Of a DNA stretch of 64,000 nucleotides, positions 848 to 7,272 are shown piece after piece; the stretch's first letter is position 1; the number at the start of each line of letters is the position of its first letter. The stretch covers positions 62,001-126,000 of the forward strand of contig NZ_JAAXPV010000003.1 of the NCBI RefSeq assembly GCF_012396615.1, in the 5' to 3' direction. Source of the DNA: Rothia terrae (GTDB taxonomy: Bacteria; Actinomycetota; Actinomycetes; Actinomycetales; Micrococcaceae). The notes beneath the pieces are model-generated. The model worked only from the letters and a program-made list of their open reading frames with translations. It was not told where the DNA came from and made no database searches. A program made the translations under genes and the position numbers.

Positions 848-2686
848 ATGCCCCACTTGCGTTCACGCACCTCAACTCACGGTCGCAACATGGCTGGCGC
901 TCGCGCCCTGTGGCGTGCAACCGGCATGGGAGATAGCGATTTCGGTAAGCCAATTATTGCTATTGCTAACTCCTTTACCCAGTTTGTGCCCGGCCACGTG
1001 CACCTGAAGAATATGGGCTCGCTGGTCGCATCCGCTATTGAAGAAGCTGGTGGCGTTGCTAAAGAGTTCAACACTATTGCGGTGGATGATGGCATTGCGA
1101 TGGGTCATGACGGCATGCTGTACTCCCTGCCGTCGCGTGATTTGATTGCTGATTCTGTTGAGTACATGGTGAATGCGCACCGTGCGGATGCGCTGGTCTG
1201 CATTTCGAACTGCGACAAGATTACCCCCGGTATGCTGATGGCGGCTATGCGTCTGAATATTCCGGTTATCTTTGTCTCCGGCGGTCCTATGGAGTCCGGC
1301 GAGGGCGTTGAGGGCGTCGTTGAGCACCGCCTTGACCTCGTGGATGCGATGGTGATGGCTGTGGATGATTCGGTGAGCGATAACGACCTGGCTCAGATTG
1401 AGAAGAATGCGTGCCCTACCTGTGGTTCGTGTGCGGGTATGTTCACCGCGAACTCCATGAACTGCCTCAATGAGGCTATCGGTTTGGCTTTGCCCGGTAA
1501 CGGCACCACTTTGGCTACTCAGGTGGCGCGTAAGGATCTCTTTGAGAACGCGGGTAAGCAGATTGTTGAGCTTTGCAAGCGTTACTACGAGCAGGATGAT
1601 GAGTCTGTTCTGCCTCGCAACATTGCGACTAAGGCTGCGTTTGAAAACGCTATGGCGTTGGATGTTGCAATGGGCGGTTCTACCAATACTGTTCTGCATA
1701 TCTTGGCAATTGCTAATGAGGGTGAGGTTGATTTCACTCTGGCTGATATTGACCGTATTTCGCGCAATGTTCCTTGCTTGGCTAAGGTTGCGCCGAACTC
1801 CACTAAGTACCACATTGAGCATGTTCACCGTGCCGGTGGCATCCCCGCAATTTTGGGTGAGCTCAACCGCGCCGGTTTGTTGAACACGAACGTCCACTCG
1901 GTGCATGCTGATTCACTGGATCAGTGGTTGAGCGACTGGGATATTCGTTCTGGCGCTGCCACCGATACCGCTAAGGAGCTTTTCTTGGCTGCTCCTGGCG
2001 GCGTTCGCACCACGCAGGCTTTCTCAACCGCTAACAAGTACGAGTCCCATGAGACCGATGCTGAAAACGGTTGCATTCGCGCGGTAAAGCATGCTTACAC
2101 CAAGGACGGTGGCTTGGCGGTTCTTTACGGCAATATTGCTGAGGACGGCGCTGTTATTAAGAGTGCGGGTATTGATGAGGAGCTCTTCCACTTTGTGGGT
2201 AAGGCATATGTGGTGGAGTCGCAGGACGAGGCTGTACACGAGATTCTGTCTAAGAACGTAAAGGAAGGCGACATTGTCGTCATTCAGTACGAGGGGCCCA
2301 AGGGCGGCCCGGGTATGCAGGAGATGCTCTACCCGACGTCCTACCTCAAGGGTCTTGGGCTGGGTAAGAAGTGCGCGCTTATTACCGACGGACGTTTCTC
2401 GGGCGGTACCTCGGGTATTTCTATTGGTCATATTTCACCGGAGGCTGCCGCTGGTGGCGCTATTGGTTTGGTGGAGCACGGCGATGAGATTGAGATTGAC
2501 GTGCATAACCGCATCCTGCGCGTGAATGTTTCTGATGCTGAGTTGGCTGAACGACGCGCGAAGAAGGGCGATGCGCCGTGGAAGCCCACCAAGCCGCGCG
2601 AGCGTGAGGTGTCGAAGGCTTTGCGTGCTTATGCTTCTATGGTGACTAGCGCTGACAAGGGCGGCGTGCGCGTTGTTCCGGAGTAA
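848..2686 (+). CDS. ilvD: Dihydroxy-acid dehydratase
   Basis: Dehydrates 2,3-dihydroxy acids to 2-oxo acids in isoleucine, valine and pantothenate synthesis (cytosolic Fe-S enzyme). The 612-residue protein matches the family length and begins like other IlvD proteins, with [18 protein letters not shown] near the N terminus. The cluster-binding cysteines appear in [10 protein letters not shown] and in [19 protein letters not shown]. The ATG at 848 is chosen over the upstream in-frame ATG at 830 because it follows a GAAGGGA Shine-Dalgarno-like stretch and gives the usual N terminus. The gene stands alone, between two strong hairpins, so it is probably monocistronic. No other ilv gene is nearby. 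Confidence 0.97.
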
Positions 2687-2704
2687 AAATGATGTAGTTT
2701 GCGT

Positions 2705-2747
2705 ATAACAATTGGTCCCGGGTTTTACACCCGGGACCAATTGTTAT
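2705..2747 (+). terminator. Hairpin terminator, probably bidirectional
   Basis: Stem of about 18-19 bp (2705-2723 with 2729-2747) with a short loop, between the converging ends of ilvD and the minus-strand monooxygenase gene. Confidence 0.8.
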
Positions 2748-2759
2748 CTATGGAAAAGT

Positions 2760-3041
2760 TTAGAAGGTGTAGATTTCTACATCCAGTGGTGCTGCCAAGT
2801 GCTTTTCCCATGCTGCTACCGCACCGGTGAAGTGGGAGGTTTGCATATGCTGATCTAGAGCTTTTTGATCTTCCCATCGCTCGATAAAAGCAAAAGAAGT
2901 TTCGGAGTCTGCAAGCTTGCCAAAATCATAACTGATGTTGGTGGTTTCTTGACGGCTTGCTTCTACCAGTTCCTGAGCAATAGCGATGAATTCTTGGATA
3001 TTATCGGGCTTGACCTCAACAGCGGCGCGTACACCAATCAT
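2760..3041 (-). CDS. Antibiotic biosynthesis monooxygenase (YgiN-like) family protein
   Basis: A 93-residue single-domain protein with the dimeric alpha+beta barrel pattern of the ABM/quinol monooxygenase family: an N-terminal strand (IGVRAAVEVKPD), a helix rich in Ala/Glu, and the typical segment SFAFIERWEDQKALDQHMQTSHF. Members act on quinols or small aromatic compounds without cofactors, but the substrate here cannot be read. The start ATG at 3041 follows AAAAGGAGAA on the minus strand. It converges on ilvD and shares its terminator. Family confident, reaction not. Confidence 0.85.
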   Translation of the reverse strand: MIGVRAAVEVKPDNIQEFIAIAQELVEASRQETTNISYDFGKLADSETSFAFIERWEDQKALDQHMQTSHFTGAVAAWEKHLAAPLDVEIYTF

Positions 3042-3168
3042 GGTGTTCTCCTTTTAAAAGATGAGTGGTTTGGTCTTTTCAACATAACATTAGTTTTCAG
3101 TTGCTCCTCTCACAGTAATATTTTGTCCCCAGAACAGCTGAGCTCATTGCGTTAACCTTCCGTTCATA

Positions 3169-3194
3169 GATATAAAAGATATAAAGGATATAAA
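3169..3194 (+). repeat. Three tandem 9-bp repeats GATATAAA(A/G/C)
   Basis: GATATAAA occurs at 3169, 3178 and 3187, an exact 9-base period, about 45 bases before the AAA ATPase gene. Iterated A/T-rich repeats here could be an operator or part of the promoter. No -35/-10 pair is clear. Confidence 0.7.
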
Positions 3195-3236
3195 CGTAAA
3201 GCTTCATAGCGCAGTCATCAGAGAGAGGAAAAGAGC

Positions 3237-4277
3237 ATGTTAACGTCTATGTCAGCGGCGCAAGCGGCTGAGCGCTCGAGCGAACTTGCAATCTTTACCT
3301 CTCGCATGACGGGTGAAAACCGCCTGCCTCTTGTTATCACAGGACCCGCTGGGTTCGGTAAAACCACCGTGGTCACCGCGTTTGAAGATTTAGCACGCAC
3401 TCATAATTGGCGCGTTATTTCAGAAACCGCCAGCAAAGGCGCTTACTCTCGTCTTACCGGCACATATTTGCCGGCGCTATGGGATTCTTTGCAAGATTCA
3501 TCCGGTAGCTCTTCTGAGAAAAACTTTGAAACTCTATGTCTGACAGAGCAACTTGAGATGCTGTTGGACGCCCTTGAAGAGCTAGGCGCTGGCCTGCTCA
3601 TCACCTTTGACGACTTTCAAAAATCCAGCGTGAAAGAACTCAAAGAGCTCTTTGTTTTTGCGGAAAAAACCAGAGAAACCAACCAGCCCTTGCAGATTGT
3701 GGTGGCGGGGCGTCCTACCGATATGCGCGATGTTCTTGCGCAGTCCAAGGCGTCCTACCTGAACGCGGGGGAGCGCGTAGATCTTTGCTCCTTCAACCGT
3801 GAGCAGACCGAAGCGGCTTTCAAAGAAGCATACGTGAGGTCAAACCGTGATCTTGCTAGCGATGCGTTGGCGATGATGTGCGCAGTCACCAAGGGGCATC
3901 CACATATGGTGCGTTTACTCTCGAAATTCCTGCTGGATTCCTGCGTGCACCCGCCCACCGAACATGAGATTGAGCAAGGAGCTAAGGCTGCCACAGAGGT
4001 TCTAGACTCTACAGTATTTGAGCCGATGCTCGCCGAATTCTCTGCCGGTGACCGCGCTTTCTTGGAAGCTATGTCGGTGGATGACGGGCCGTCCAAAATG
4101 AGCGATATCGCAGCTCGTCTGGGCAAAAATCCGCAGTATACCGGGGTCTATCGTAACCGCCTGGTTGAAGCGCACATTATTCGCGCGGCATCCTACGGCA
4201 AAGTCACCTTTGCGATTCCTCACTTGCGCGAGTATTTGCGTAGAAAAGCTGAGCAACCCTCAGACTTTAATTTTTAA
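3237..4277 (+). CDS. AAA/STAND-type ATPase with C-terminal winged-helix region
   Basis: A 346-residue P-loop ATPase. Walker A is GPAGFGKTT at residues 36-44, and Walker B is LLITFDD around 120-126, in an ORC/Cdc6-like or STAND-like arrangement. A later segment, VAGRPTD, is in the position of a sensor strand. The last 90 residues look helical with a winged-helix style run (KMSDIAARLGKNPQYTGVYR). There is no nuclease or membrane segment. It is followed 46 bases later by the RNase H-fold gene on the same strand, so the two are probably co-transcribed. The start follows AGAGAGGAAA. The ATPase class is clear; the biological role is unknown to me. Confidence 0.85.
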   Translation: MLTSMSAAQAAERSSELAIFTSRMTGENRLPLVITGPAGFGKTTVVTAFEDLARTHNWRVISETASKGAYSRLTGTYLPALWDSLQDSSGSSSEKNFETLCLTEQLEMLLDALEELGAGLLITFDDFQKSSVKELKELFVFAEKTRETNQPLQIVVAGRPTDMRDVLAQSKASYLNAGERVDLCSFNREQTEAAFKEAYVRSNRDLASDALAMMCAVTKGHPHMVRLLSKFLLDSCVHPPTEHEIEQGAKAATEVLDSTVFEPMLAEFSAGDRAFLEAMSVDDGPSKMSDIAARLGKNPQYTGVYRNRLVEAHIIRAASYGKVTFAIPHLREYLRRKAEQPSDFNF

Positions 4278-4323
4278 AAGATTTAAAACAGAAAAACAAC
4301 ATCAACATTTGGAGGTGAAAAGA

Positions 4324-5520
4324 ATGGGTATAACACCGGCAAGTATCAAAAAGATAGAGCTGACATGGGAACCGCCTGACTACACGTCGTCCTATCCTGC
4401 GGGTTACACGCAAGAGGGCGTTGCTGTTATTGCGATTATGATGCACACGCATCAATCAAAAGGGATGTGTTACACGGGATTATCAGCGATGCTCTACGTG
4501 TCGCGTGAAAACGGTGATCGCGAGATTTTAGCGTGCGGACCAATTACAGAGGGCCGAACGCACTCAATGTTGGATTCGTGCGATGATGTGCACGTTGCCA
4601 TGATTGGCCGCACTATTTTGCGGGCGTGGGAGCAGATTCCGCAGCAGTACAAAAAGAATCTGGTGACGGTGGTAGCTGACAAACACTACCTCAAATTGCT
4701 GTTTCGTCAGTTCCCGCATTTGAAAGAAATTCTTGAGTACAGGGCGCTTGAGAAAATTCTCAACCCTTACGAGTCTCATTCACTGGGCGAGATTCACGTG
4801 AAGGTTCTGCGCTCTGAGGCCGGTGAGGTTGTTCCTTACCACCTTGAAGAAGCATCGCGTCTTGCTCATGAACAGATGGAGCGCAACCTTGCGCAGCGTC
4901 CTTTAGAGAAACTTGAAGAGTACAGGGTTTTTACGGATTGTTCGTTCCGTTCGACAAACAATAAGCGGTACTCCAAGGGCGGACGCATGGGTATCGGAGG
5001 CGTGAGTGAGGACGGCTTTTACTTTCACTCGCACTACGATGCCACCAACATTATGACCGGTGAGCTGACTGCCATGTTGGCTGCTTTCAACATTTTCTAC
5101 CACGGTGGCCGTCAGCTGATTATTCATACTGACTCTCTGGGTGCTCTCACTTTTGTGCTACGTCTGGCGCATAATCGCTGGTCTTTTGAGCACTGGGTTA
5201 AAGAGGGTGTGCAGAACCCGCAGGTCATTCAAGAAATGACCGATTTGACCACCGCTATTCGCGAACGACGCGTGCTGGTCAAGCACGTGCCGGGGCATAC
5301 CGGTCACGGTCTGCAGGAATCTAGCGACTCGGTGTCTAAGATGCACCGGCACTTTCCGGGGCAGATTGTTGAAAAGTGCGATATGGCTGAGTTCAATCGC
5401 CGATGCGAGTCAATTATCACCGCGTTGTCGGGATGCAAAAAGGCTGTGCGTCTGATGTGCCCCGACTGGCTGCAGATTCGCCCCTCGGTGGTGCACGCCC
5501 GCAACCGGTTGTGGAAGTAA
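4324..5520 (+). CDS. RNase H-fold protein with intact acidic catalytic set
   Basis: A 398-residue protein. Its C-terminal half carries a type 1 RNase H signature: FTDCSF (D205), TGELTAML (E247), IIHTDSLGAL (D270) and a final ESSDSVSKM (D335) after a HVPGHTGHG segment. All four acidic residues are present, so nuclease activity is plausible. The first 200 residues are unassigned; VTVVADKHYLKLL near 114-126 resembles an RNase H strand-helix unit, hinting at a degenerate second copy (inference). The ATG at 4324 is chosen because it follows TTGGAGGTGAAAAG; the frame is open further upstream but would overlap the ATPase gene. Probably an operon with that ATPase. It is not a standard housekeeping RNase HI (about 150 residues). 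Confidence 0.8.
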   Translation: MGITPASIKKIELTWEPPDYTSSYPAGYTQEGVAVIAIMMHTHQSKGMCYTGLSAMLYVSRENGDREILACGPITEGRTHSMLDSCDDVHVAMIGRTILRAWEQIPQQYKKNLVTVVADKHYLKLLFRQFPHLKEILEYRALEKILNPYESHSLGEIHVKVLRSEAGEVVPYHLEEASRLAHEQMERNLAQRPLEKLEEYRVFTDCSFRSTNNKRYSKGGRMGIGGVSEDGFYFHSHYDATNIMTGELTAMLAAFNIFYHGGRQLIIHTDSLGALTFVLRLAHNRWSFEHWVKEGVQNPQVIQEMTDLTTAIRERRVLVKHVPGHTGHGLQESSDSVSKMHRHFPGQIVEKCDMAEFNRRCESIITALSGCKKAVRLMCPDWLQIRPSVVHARNRLWK

Positions 5521-5537
5521 AAACACTTACTCTACTG

Positions 5538-5576
5538 AAAAGATCTCCTCGCCTCTTGAGGACGGGGAGATCTTTT
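5538..5576 (+). terminator. Rho-independent terminator of the ATPase/RNase H operon
   Basis: An 11-bp stem AAAAGATCTCC (5538-5548) pairs with GGAGATCTTTT (5566-5576), with a 17-base loop containing a smaller hairpin and a T-run at the 3' end. Confidence 0.85.
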
Positions 5577-5651
5577 GTTGTGAACATCCAGCATCCACCC
5601 AGATAACCGCTCATATTAAGTGATATAGCACTCAATAAGTGGAGAGATGGC

Positions 5652-5663
5652 TTACTTAAGTAA
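5652..5663 (+). promoter_or_regulatory. 12-bp perfect palindrome TTACTTAAGTAA
   Basis: A perfect palindrome 80 bases before the MFS start, close to another small inverted repeat (AGTG...CACT around 5620-5633). It could be an operator for the transporter gene. Position and symmetry are the only evidence. Confidence 0.4.
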
Positions 5664-5742
5664 CGAACTTGTTTGGTTTTAGAGGCTCCACCCCGCGCAC
5701 CATGCGTTACCGTAGCTCTGTACTTGACCAGAAAGTTCACTT

Positions 5743-7272
5743 ATGAATACTCCAGAACAGATTCACCAGTCCGTCCCCCTTCTCAAAGAAGAAGACGTGC
5801 TGGTTGTCGACCAAAAAGAAATGAAGAAGGCTCTGCGAGCTACCATCTTGGGTAACTTCATGGAGTGGTTCGACATAGGCGTCTACGCATACCTTTCCGC
5901 TTCAATCACCGCTGTCTTCTTCCCCTTCGGTGAGCCCTGGAACCAGCTAGCGTTCTTCGGTGCGCTGGCCGCGACCTTCATCGTGCGTCCTATCGGCGGT
6001 CTCATTCTCGGGCCGCTGGGCGACAAGCTCGGACGACGCAAGGTACTCGCATTCACCATCATCATGATGGCGCTGGGCACCTTCCTCATCGGTTGCATCC
6101 CCTCCTACGACAGCTGGGGCATGTGGGCACCCATCACCTTGATCCTGCTCAAGTTCGTTCAGGGCTTCTCAACCGGTGGCGAATACGCAGGTGCAGCAAC
6201 CTTCATCGCAGAATACTCAGCAGACCGCCGACGCGGCTTCTGGGCGTCCTTCCTGGACATGGGCTCATACATCGGCTTCGCTTTCGCAGCTGCCCTAGCA
6301 ACCGGGGTTGAACTCTTGCTCACCGACGAACAGATGATCTCATTTGGCTGGCGTATCTGCTTCTGGGTTGCTCTGCCCCTCGGTATCATCGGCGTTATCA
6401 TGCGCTCGCACATCAAGGAATCAGCAACCTTCGAAGCGCAGCAGGAAGCCGCTAAAGACGAAGAAGAAAAAGGTATGGGCGCAACCCTTATCGAAATCTT
6501 CAAGAAGTACTGGCCCCAGCTTCTCACCGGTGCTGCTCTGGTGATGTGTGCACAGGTTATCGGCTACGCGCTGACCACCTTCATGCCCACCTACCTCACC
6601 GAGAACCTGGGCTACGACACCCTGCACGGTAACGCCCTGCTCATTCCGGTACTGCTGATTGTGGCGGCTGGCCTGCCCATCTTCGGTCACTTCTCAGACA
6701 AGATCGGCCGCAAGCCGATTCTGATTGCCGGCGCTATCATCAGCATCTTCCTGGCAATCCCGTCCTTCTACCTCATGATGAACGGCGGCGTCTGGATGAC
6801 CTTCTTCGGCCTGCTGATTATGGGCTTCATGCTCATGTTCCAGGCAGCTATCCAGCCCTCAGCACTGCCCTCACTCTTTGCAACCGAAAACCGCTACGCA
6901 GCAATGGGTATCATGTTCAACATCGCTGTTGCGTTGCTCGGCTCAACCACCGGTTCAGTCATTACCGTTCTTGAATCATGGTGGAAGACCGACTATGCCG
7001 GCGCCTACTACATCATGATTGCCTGCGTTGTTGGCCTGATCGGTATGTTCTTCTTGCGTGAATCAGCAGGACGCAACCTGCTCGGCTCAATGCCCACCGT
7101 TGAATCACACGAAGAAGTACAGGAACTGGTTGAAACCCAGCTTGAAAACGACAAGCTCGACACCTCAACCATGCCCATTCCCGTTGTTCGCATCGAGAAG
7201 GCAGAAGCACAACTCGCATCCGAAAACGGTACTGCAACTTCTGCTGCAGAAGGTTCACAGCGCGTAGAATAA
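5743..7272 (+). CDS. MFS transporter, metabolite:H+ symporter (ProP-like) family
   Basis: A 509-residue inner-membrane transporter of the major facilitator superfamily. It shows the MHS-family features: N-terminal NFMEWFDIGVYAYL, a loop 2-3 GDKLGRRKVL, FVQGFSTGGEYAGA in helix 4, and a repeat of the loop motif as GHFSDKIGRKPIL in the second half. Twelve hydrophobic segments can be followed. The family includes proline/betaine (ProP), citrate and alpha-ketoglutarate carriers; the substrate is not determinable here. The C terminus has an acidic, Glu-rich tail of about 70 residues. The ATG at 5743 has only a weak ribosome binding site. Flanking hairpins suggest a single-gene unit. Confidence 0.9.
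   Translation: MNTPEQIHQSVPLLKEEDVLVVDQKEMKKALRATILGNFMEWFDIGVYAYLSASITAVFFPFGEPWNQLAFFGALAATFIVRPIGGLILGPLGDKLGRRKVLAFTIIMMALGTFLIGCIPSYDSWGMWAPITLILLKFVQGFSTGGEYAGAATFIAEYSADRRRGFWASFLDMGSYIGFAFAAALATGVELLLTDEQMISFGWRICFWVALPLGIIGVIMRSHIKESATFEAQQEAAKDEEEKGMGATLIEIFKKYWPQLLTGAALVMCAQVIGYALTTFMPTYLTENLGYDTLHGNALLIPVLLIVAAGLPIFGHFSDKIGRKPILIAGAIISIFLAIPSFYLMMNGGVWMTFFGLLIMGFMLMFQAAIQPSALPSLFATENRYAAMGIMFNIAVALLGSTTGSVITVLESWWKTDYAGAYYIMIACVVGLIGMFFLRESAGRNLLGSMPTVESHEEVQELVETQLENDKLDTSTMPIPVVRIEKAEAQLASENGTATSAAEGSQRVE

Follow-up and report, generated by a model that had tools for sequence, protein, structure and literature searches.

What is the relation between a P-loop ATPase gene, preceded by a small array of direct repeats, and the RNase H-fold gene that it directly adjoins in Rothia terrae? 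The two genes lie in a 64,000-nucleotide stretch of contig NZ_JAAXPV010000003.1 (positions 62,001 to 126,000 of the forward strand; hereafter the window, in whose coordinates window features are given), where an initial annotation, made from the letters alone, had described positions 3237-5520 as a self-contained two-gene unit of the kind found in defence or mobile-element systems. The first gene (3237-4277, + strand, ATG start) encodes a 346-residue AAA+ ATPase with a C-terminal winged helix, hereafter the ATPase, which belongs to an iteron-bearing family found across the Actinomycetota, in chromosomes as well as plasmids; the second (4324-5520, + strand) begins 46 bp past the ATPase stop codon and encodes a 398-residue protein, hereafter RH. 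Our answer, to which we give about an even chance of being right as a whole, is that the ATPase is a mobile, self-addressed autoregulator acting on its own iterons, and that one such copy has become fixed in front of RH in a single Rothia clade.

The architecture first proposed for the ATPase, a P-loop protein with a winged-helix end, is upheld. Alignment of family members places the Walker A motif (GPAGFGKT) at residues 36-43 (3342-3365, + strand), and the structural model (mean predicted local distance difference test score, pLDDT, of 78.5) has an AAA+ domain followed by a winged-helix DNA-binding domain. The latter spans residues 268-333 (4038-4235, + strand), as drawn from the secondary structure of the model and from the contrast in identity among Rothia copies given below, and holds a predicted recognition helix at residues 299-311 (PQYTGVYRNRLVE; 4131-4169, + strand). 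Structure prediction, the check that had been suggested, agrees: the nearest folds to the model are the archaeal proteins PABY2304 (2qen; Z 21.4, root-mean-square deviation 4.5, 308 residues aligned) and SSO1545 (2fna; Z 20.5, deviation 4.6, 308 aligned), which share with the ATPase the whole-length fold of AAA+ domain and C-terminal winged helix at 14-18% identity. They are followed by NLR/CED-4 switches and the Orc1/Cdc6 initiators 2qby, 1w5t and 2v1u, in a list from which the absence of a family does not exclude it. We know of neither iterons nor own-promoter specificity for SSO1545 or PABY2304. At the sequence level, the window copy scores above the curated Pfam cut-offs for ATPase_2 (33.8, cut-off 33.2) and AAA_16 (36.7, cut-off 32.6); at E values up to 0.001, AAA_16 is matched by all 18 aligned members and ATPase_2 by 3 of them.

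Within this fold, the Rothia copies have an altered active site. Residue 126, directly after the Walker B aspartate (Asp125), is glutamate in 12 of 12 aligned members outside Rothia; the six Rothia ATPases have D, H, A, G, D and T at this position, the window copy having Asp. Because the Walker B glutamate is missing, the Rothia copies are probably nucleotide-binding switches and not motors. Median identity among the six is 82% for the winged helix and 36% for the AAA part, compared with 77% for the RH proteins encoded beside them, and the AAA part could itself act as a sensor.

The tandem repeats reported at the promoter in the initial annotation are likewise present, and like repeats recur across the ATPase family. 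In the window, a repeat search returns three tandem GATATAAA units at 9-bp spacing (3169-3194), within an array of three 9-bp direct repeats (AGATATAAA AGATATAAA GGATATAAA; 3168-3194, + strand, or -69 to -43 from the ATPase start codon), with a lag score of 16 at lag 9 that none of 100 shuffles equalled. A like array precedes the ATPase in the other five Rothia loci that carry it, with one variant unit in one of them (L083). The upstream regions of relatives contain short direct repeats whose sequence differs between members; their spacing is 9-10 bp, and most lie no more than ~110 bp before the anchor of the open reading frame (ORF). Among 88 members (114 collected, less near-copies), the number with an identical 6-mer recurring upstream is 43 for lag 9, 39 for lag 10, 25 for lag 18, 34 for lag 19, 14 for lag 20, 19 for lag 28 and 13 for lag 38, compared with 2-9 for each of lags 6-8 and 11-17. 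Shuffles of an earlier set of 75 members (101 genes less near-copies, without the 13 most distant relatives, L119-L131) gave 2.1-3.4 per lag. For the 234 control upstreams the corresponding counts are 28 (lag 9), 3 (lag 10), 19 (lag 18), 8 (lag 19), 14 (lag 28) and 3 (lag 38); these controls are mechanically called ORFs of at least 200 residues from plasmid stretches, some overlapping, and their upstreams include coding sequence with its period of 3. An identical 6-mer at lag 9, 10, 18, 19 or 20 is found in 69 of the 75 members of the earlier set, compared with 6 of the 13 distant relatives. Members that passed the first shuffle test (p up to 0.05) were all 6 from Rothia, 15 of the 22 from Micrococcaceae, 18 of the 29 in the phylum-wide set and 8 of the 12 from plasmids, including all 16 of the closer phylum-wide relatives (L103-L118). 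Arrays that pass the repeat test end 0-58 bp before the assigned start, with starts assigned by rule.

In three genomes, each scanned with one repeat-pair pattern, the repeats are restricted to the member's own promoter, save for one isolated site. The R. terrae genome has, at up to 2 mismatches, two overlapping perfect sites at the promoter and a single isolated one elsewhere with one mismatch; in two other genomes (G670 and G132), 8 of 8 and 3 of 3 sites at up to 3 mismatches lie at the own promoter, and a reversed-pattern control found 0. Two further observations concern upstream regions of this family: four distant relatives (L119, L122, L127 and L128) have, by eye, an apparent inverted repeat just before the start instead of direct repeats, and at two loci (L133 and L135) a gene diverging from the ATPase across the intergenic repeats may share the same array.

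Across the family, the repeats vary together with the winged helix. We compared distances between members in their iterons with distances in parts of the protein, in a sample reduced from 101 genes to 91 with a repeat region, to 76 by thresholds (score of at least 9, no more than 95 bp from the ORF anchor) and the removal by name of L164, L144 and L053, and to 61 by dropping near-copies at 80% identity. Iteron distance correlates with winged-helix distance at r=0.43, and controlling for the AAA part leaves 0.40 (p=0.0005, the lowest value attainable with 2000 permutations); the correlation with the AAA part is 0.17 (p=0.0015), falling to -0.04 given the winged helix. Along the protein, the best 12-column window falls on residues 296-307 (partial r 0.49), within and just before the predicted recognition helix. 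Two disjoint subsets, which together hold 58 of the 61 members (L098, L143 and L134 were left out), gave 0.48-0.56 (n=30) and 0.42-0.48 (n=28) for the helix given the rest of the winged helix (p=0.001, floor); the first subset is taken to be mostly Coriobacteriia, judging from one 93% match to a Collinsella plasmid. Without thresholds, 69 of the 91 members gave a covariation of 0.44 (p=0.001). Examples of the pairing are DYAQKYR with GGAAAA, SQVAQYR with CTTAGA, [QK]Y-GVYR with TATAAA or TCTAAA, and NT-GNYR with TACACA or TTCACA. The iteron array is probably recognised by the ATPase's own winged helix.

Address and reader also appear to travel together. Of the 149 Micrococcaceae genomes, 66 contain relatives of the ATPase (E value up to 0.001), as do 60 of 396 genomes phylum-wide (E value up to 1e-15); in the phylum-wide set a single genome has as many as five matches, counting partial ones. 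Matches also occur in 44 plasmid records, with coverage of the query reaching at least 80% in 18, and at two loci in viral contigs, where further scans gave the same locus again or nothing. We compared 49 gene pairs whose DNA is 74-98% identical. Both flanks reach 400 bp or more in 29 of them, and 13 of these 29 lose the match close to the gene on either side, no further out than 150 bp before the ORF anchor and 60 bp from the stop codon, the flanks being otherwise unmatched. For 8 of these 13 pairs the matched stretch includes 46-71 bp of upstream sequence, the part that holds the repeats; the 8 pairs form four groups (L032/L034/L133/L135, L040/L049, L043/L044 and L045/L138), with identities such as 87% for L043/L044 and 85% for L040/L049. 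The ATPase gene and its repeats thus seem able to change place as one cassette among Actinomycetota, and the early suspicion of a mobile element is borne out to the extent that some family members have moved together with their repeats. The pair comparison revealed neither the ends of the unit nor a mechanism of movement. A second family member with different repeats of its own (AATAAGAAA type; L165) occurs in a Rothia genome (G033) that also holds an RH-linked copy, and on a Cellulosimicrobium plasmid a family gene (L134, 4875-6005) lies between ParA and ParB genes, with others intervening.

RH has a different history. As the second, lower-scoring RNase H match of its genome it is present in 27 of 35 Rothia genomes, and tblastn confirmed it in all 27 fetched loci, with ilvD on the same stretch in 26. 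The 26 intact copies are all 398 residues long, with a median ratio of nonsynonymous to synonymous substitution (dN/dS) of 0.05, computed from those 45 of the 325 pairs whose dS lies between 0.05 and 1; the remaining copy (L086, 4719-5914, in genome G149) is interrupted by a frameshift, unless this reflects an assembly error. Full-length RH was found in this genus alone: 7 of the 149 family genomes searched and 4 of the 297 order genomes have it, all of them Rothia, and the other matches in these two sets are short stretches of RNase H domain. By its distribution and conservation, then, RH is evidently an older, resident Rothia gene. A phage-borne origin was dropped, as RH was found neither in phages nor, by a pattern-based scan, in viral contigs. 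RH as the genome's only RNase H was ruled out by a second, canonical match: a separate, higher-scoring one occurs in 34 of the 35 Rothia genomes (one of the 34 with an internal stop), and the single genome without it is an assembly of 87% completeness.

The ATPase lies directly upstream in only 6 of the 27 RH loci and, because the other 21 have RH without it, the claim of a self-contained two-gene unit does not hold. On the RH tree, rooted by midpoint, two changes suffice for the presence of the ATPase, for example acquisition by the ancestor of a 20-species clade and a loss in a 14-species clade, and the best reading is that the ATPase is a newcomer beside RH in one Rothia lineage. Where the two are adjacent, the gap is 36-47 bp in all six species (46 bp in the window) and contains a ribosome-binding-like site. 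Neighbourhoods of relatives of the ATPase were surveyed for conserved co-occurrence, as had been suggested: 12 plasmid neighbourhoods have no recurrent partner gene, and neighbours clustered at 26 Micrococcaceae loci (flanks of up to 1.5 kb) formed, once frames overlapping the ATPase gene are set aside, no groups beyond those of three or four loci that share flanks. Separability and synteny in relatives, together with an assigned housekeeping role, had been named as grounds for abandoning the pair as a functional unit; the genes are separable and RH is syntenic, and no housekeeping role can be assigned to RH.

How such a cassette might work can be sketched from these parts. The winged helix would bind the three 9-bp repeats as an oligomer, one subunit per repeat, and binding would most likely repress transcription of the ATPase gene itself; we deem repression likelier than activation because the array (positions -69 to -43 relative to the start codon) occupies the likely place of the promoter. 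A signal or a change of nucleotide, read by the fast-evolving AAA part, would relieve it. In the ancestor of one Rothia clade, the cassette would have landed before the older RH gene, and in the six species concerned, which are mouth bacteria, RH would now be co-transcribed under the iteron-controlled promoter. A regulator of comparable layout is RptR, a defence-island repressor which is reported to repress its own promoter through three 9-bp direct repeats lying 58-31 bp before the start codon, and to bind as a homodimer a 6-bp palindrome conserved across its homologues (PMC12255303). The array layout is alike, but the RptR site is conserved, whereas here the repeat varies from member to member and the protein is an AAA+ ATPase.

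Several results weigh against this autoregulator reading. At the level of individual members, the nearest neighbour by recognition helix is no closer in its repeats than the nearest neighbour by AAA part (21 to 22, 1 tie), nor does it fare better when the comparison is with the neighbour chosen by the remainder of the winged helix (18 to 22); and the p values of the covariation tests, which are Mantel tests, ignore part of the shared ancestry. Control genes, too, passed the first shuffle test in 20 of 88 cases, two of them being genes that share the same intergenic repeats, and because controls passed it too often the lag profile and the second control were introduced. Only 2 of the 13 distant relatives (L119-L131) pass that first test. 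As to movement, 5 of the 13 two-sided pairs, less alike than the others, stop matching 3-6 bp upstream and so exclude the repeats, and several sets keep long flanks by descent (for example L035/L037/L039 and L051/L053/L054). A promoter scan found no sigma-70-like site at the array, whose position relative to the promoter is assumed. Finally, the STAND protein AfsR is reported to activate through 11-bp direct repeats that overlap the -35 element (PMC10936776), and because it does so through promoter-overlapping repeats, the sign of control by the ATPase may be positive.

This last point leads to the alternative that the ATPase is a STAND-type activator, akin to MalT, AfsR or IniR, that on receipt of a signal would assemble on the repeats and switch on its own operon, RH included; we hold this to be unlikely. 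In MalT, an ATPase switch is joined to a DNA-binding domain, as in the ATPase. The NLR switches among the nearest folds fit such a regulator, as do weak matches of the window protein to MalT (24 bits, cut-off 537) and of 1 of 18 members to IniR. IniR, a mycobacterial ATPase with an SSO1545-like domain, is reported to activate one dedicated operon (PMC5760070), and AfsR supplies direct-repeat operators (PMC10936776). Unlike these regulators, the ATPase has its DNA-binding domain as a winged helix that ends the AAA+ part, and its likely target is its own promoter, differing from copy to copy. In the model, AAA+ domain and winged helix fill all 346 residues, leaving no space for a MalT-like sensor domain, and no separate sensor or repeat domain of STAND type was found. 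That arrays end so close before the assigned start favours overlap with the core promoter, and hence repression, though AfsR indicates that overlap is compatible with activation.

It is rather improbable that RH and the ATPase are simply unrelated neighbours, RH having its own promoter and role and the cassette having been inserted upstream by chance. RH does have an upstream region of its own in species without the ATPase, and the ATPase relatives show no recurrent partner; yet the gap is as short as 36-47 bp in six species, with its ribosome-binding-like site, and two clades of the RH tree retain the adjacency. The promoter scan detected no sigma-70-like site between the two genes and none before the ATPase either, and is not decisive.

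A shade less probable again is that the cassette is an Orc1/Cdc6-like initiator with its origin, serving replication or plasmid marking and now stranded in chromosomes. Orc1/Cdc6 proteins at their origin boxes and plasmid initiators at their iterons adjoin the repeated sites they use, and the ATPase is likewise an AAA+/winged-helix protein beside its own repeats; Orc1/Cdc6 structures (2qby, 1w5t and 2v1u) are among its nearest folds, and 3 of 18 members weakly match an orc1/cdc6 NCBIfam model. The family is also matched in 44 plasmid records, one with the gene between ParA and ParB genes, and no Rep gene is annotated on 100 kb of a 104-kb Citricoccus plasmid, for which the gene table is incomplete. 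However, no sign of origin function was seen here. On the Citricoccus stretch, the one plasmid analysed for it, cumulative GC skew has its extremes at 78 and 33 kb and not at the gene at 2 kb, which is of little help in judging this reading. The window protein falls far below the curated Orc1/Cdc6 score (TIGR02928, 15.8 bits, cut-off 181.3), genomes carry up to five matches, partial ones included, and the Rothia copies lack the catalytic glutamate.

Least probable by some distance is the defence module that an ATPase-nuclease pair had first suggested, in which the ATPase would sense or remodel and the RNase H would cut RNA-DNA hybrids of an invader: adjacency, a fast-evolving AAA part, the mobility of the family and weak PADLOC matches among relatives (Cas3b models in up to 9 of 18, CARF/Csa3 in fewer, best E value 1e-05) speak for it, but the genes are paired in 6 of 27 RH loci only, RH is syntenic, under a dN/dS of 0.05 and found in no other genus, the 12 plasmid neighbourhoods show no recurrent partner, and the window pair itself reaches a best PADLOC E value of 0.025 for the ATPase and no match for RH at E values up to 1, so that the pair was dropped on grounds of separability, synteny and absence of partners.

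If the autoregulator reading is right, the cassette has come to control a protein with two RNase H folds, one of them predicted. The C-terminal RNase H domain of RH (residues 199-337; 4918-5334, + strand; PF00075, 8.1e-10) contains D205, E247, D270, H325 and D335 and scores 39.5 bits against a Pfam cut-off of 25.8; D205, E247, D270, D335, H325 and H328 are invariant in 26 of 26 intact copies, that of the window included, which confirms the complete D-E-D-D set credited to this 398-residue protein at the outset. RH is no rnhA equivalog (scores of 24.8 of 280 and 19.3 of 160). Its second half aligns with retroviral RNase H over the active-site region and, at 31% identity over 95 residues (E value 0.001), with the RNase H of its own genome. 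This half shares the catalytic set of RNase HI (PF00075); RH itself is bacterial, has no polymerase, and has full-length homologues only in Rothia.

The first half, which the initial annotation had left unassigned, indeed gave no sequence-level match to RNase H, but its model does suggest an assignment. The 50 Protein Data Bank matches listed for the N-terminal model all fall within residues 20-192, with Z of 7.4-9.3, and most of them are RNase H-like folds (Argonaute/PIWI, RNase H1, reverse-transcriptase RNase H and endonuclease V). Block means of pLDDT in this half are 72-88 for residues 31-140, 55 and 42 for 141-160, and 70-89 for 161-190; the RH model as a whole is weak (mean pLDDT 52.1, from four sequences, with the C-terminal half mostly below 50), and its whole-length Foldseek matches were left unused for that reason. 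The model thus suggests that residues 25-190 (4396-4893, + strand) form a degenerate RNase H-like fold, for which this Z range is only suggestive. An internal duplication detectable by sequence was rejected at a profile comparison probability of 0.1; the RNase H fold of the N-terminal half is drawn from structure prediction. The reverse transcriptase of foamy viruses has a tether and RNase H in a similar order, and RH likewise would have an RNase H-like fold in front, although this first half has no detectable sequence similarity. Removal of RNA from RNA-DNA hybrids is the most economical guess at the role of RH.

Taken singly, these parts belong to known kinds, namely an SSO1545-type ATPase, a set of direct-repeat operators and an RNase H. 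A search of open-access literature returned no paper describing a family whose copies each have repeats of their own. We tentatively propose, while leaning somewhat towards doubt, that the family is an undescribed class of minimal mobile units, each a gene with private 9-10-bp iterons that would be read by its own winged helix only, of which the Rothia unit is a domesticated example that controls an RNase H with two such folds. If so, address and reader would diversify together, allowing several copies per genome without cross-talk, much as with phage immunity repressors or plasmid incompatibility groups; the Rothia unit would have lost its catalytic glutamate, kept its address and taken over the expression of RH. 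Were binding confirmed, the family would offer a natural library of many protein-operator pairs, with recognition helix and repeat altered in concert, from which a winged-helix recognition code could be read and directly tested. It would also account for a group of actinobacterial genes, in genomes and on plasmids, whose sole annotation is "ATP-binding protein", and would exemplify the capture of a mobile regulator by a resident gene.

The remaining features of the locus concern its borders. Of the hairpins placed at both ends in the initial annotation, the one 3' of RH is there, a terminator-like inverted repeat that closes the unit (5538-5576, + strand; arms 5538-5551 and 5563-5576, 14 nt, 93% complementary); at the 5' end only a weak stem (3031-3046) was found, overlapping the start of an opposite-strand gene. 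A terminator scan further marks a weak 5-bp stem with a T-rich tail near the end of the ATPase gene (4249-4263, + strand), a possible point of attenuation between the ATPase and RH that is not convincing by itself, and the region 2600-5800 contains 8 terminator-like sites against 3.8 expected. Downstream of RH, a major facilitator superfamily (MFS) transporter gene (5743-7272) separates RH from a DedA gene in the window; in G033 (L077) the DedA gene follows RH directly, and the transporter gene may be an insertion.

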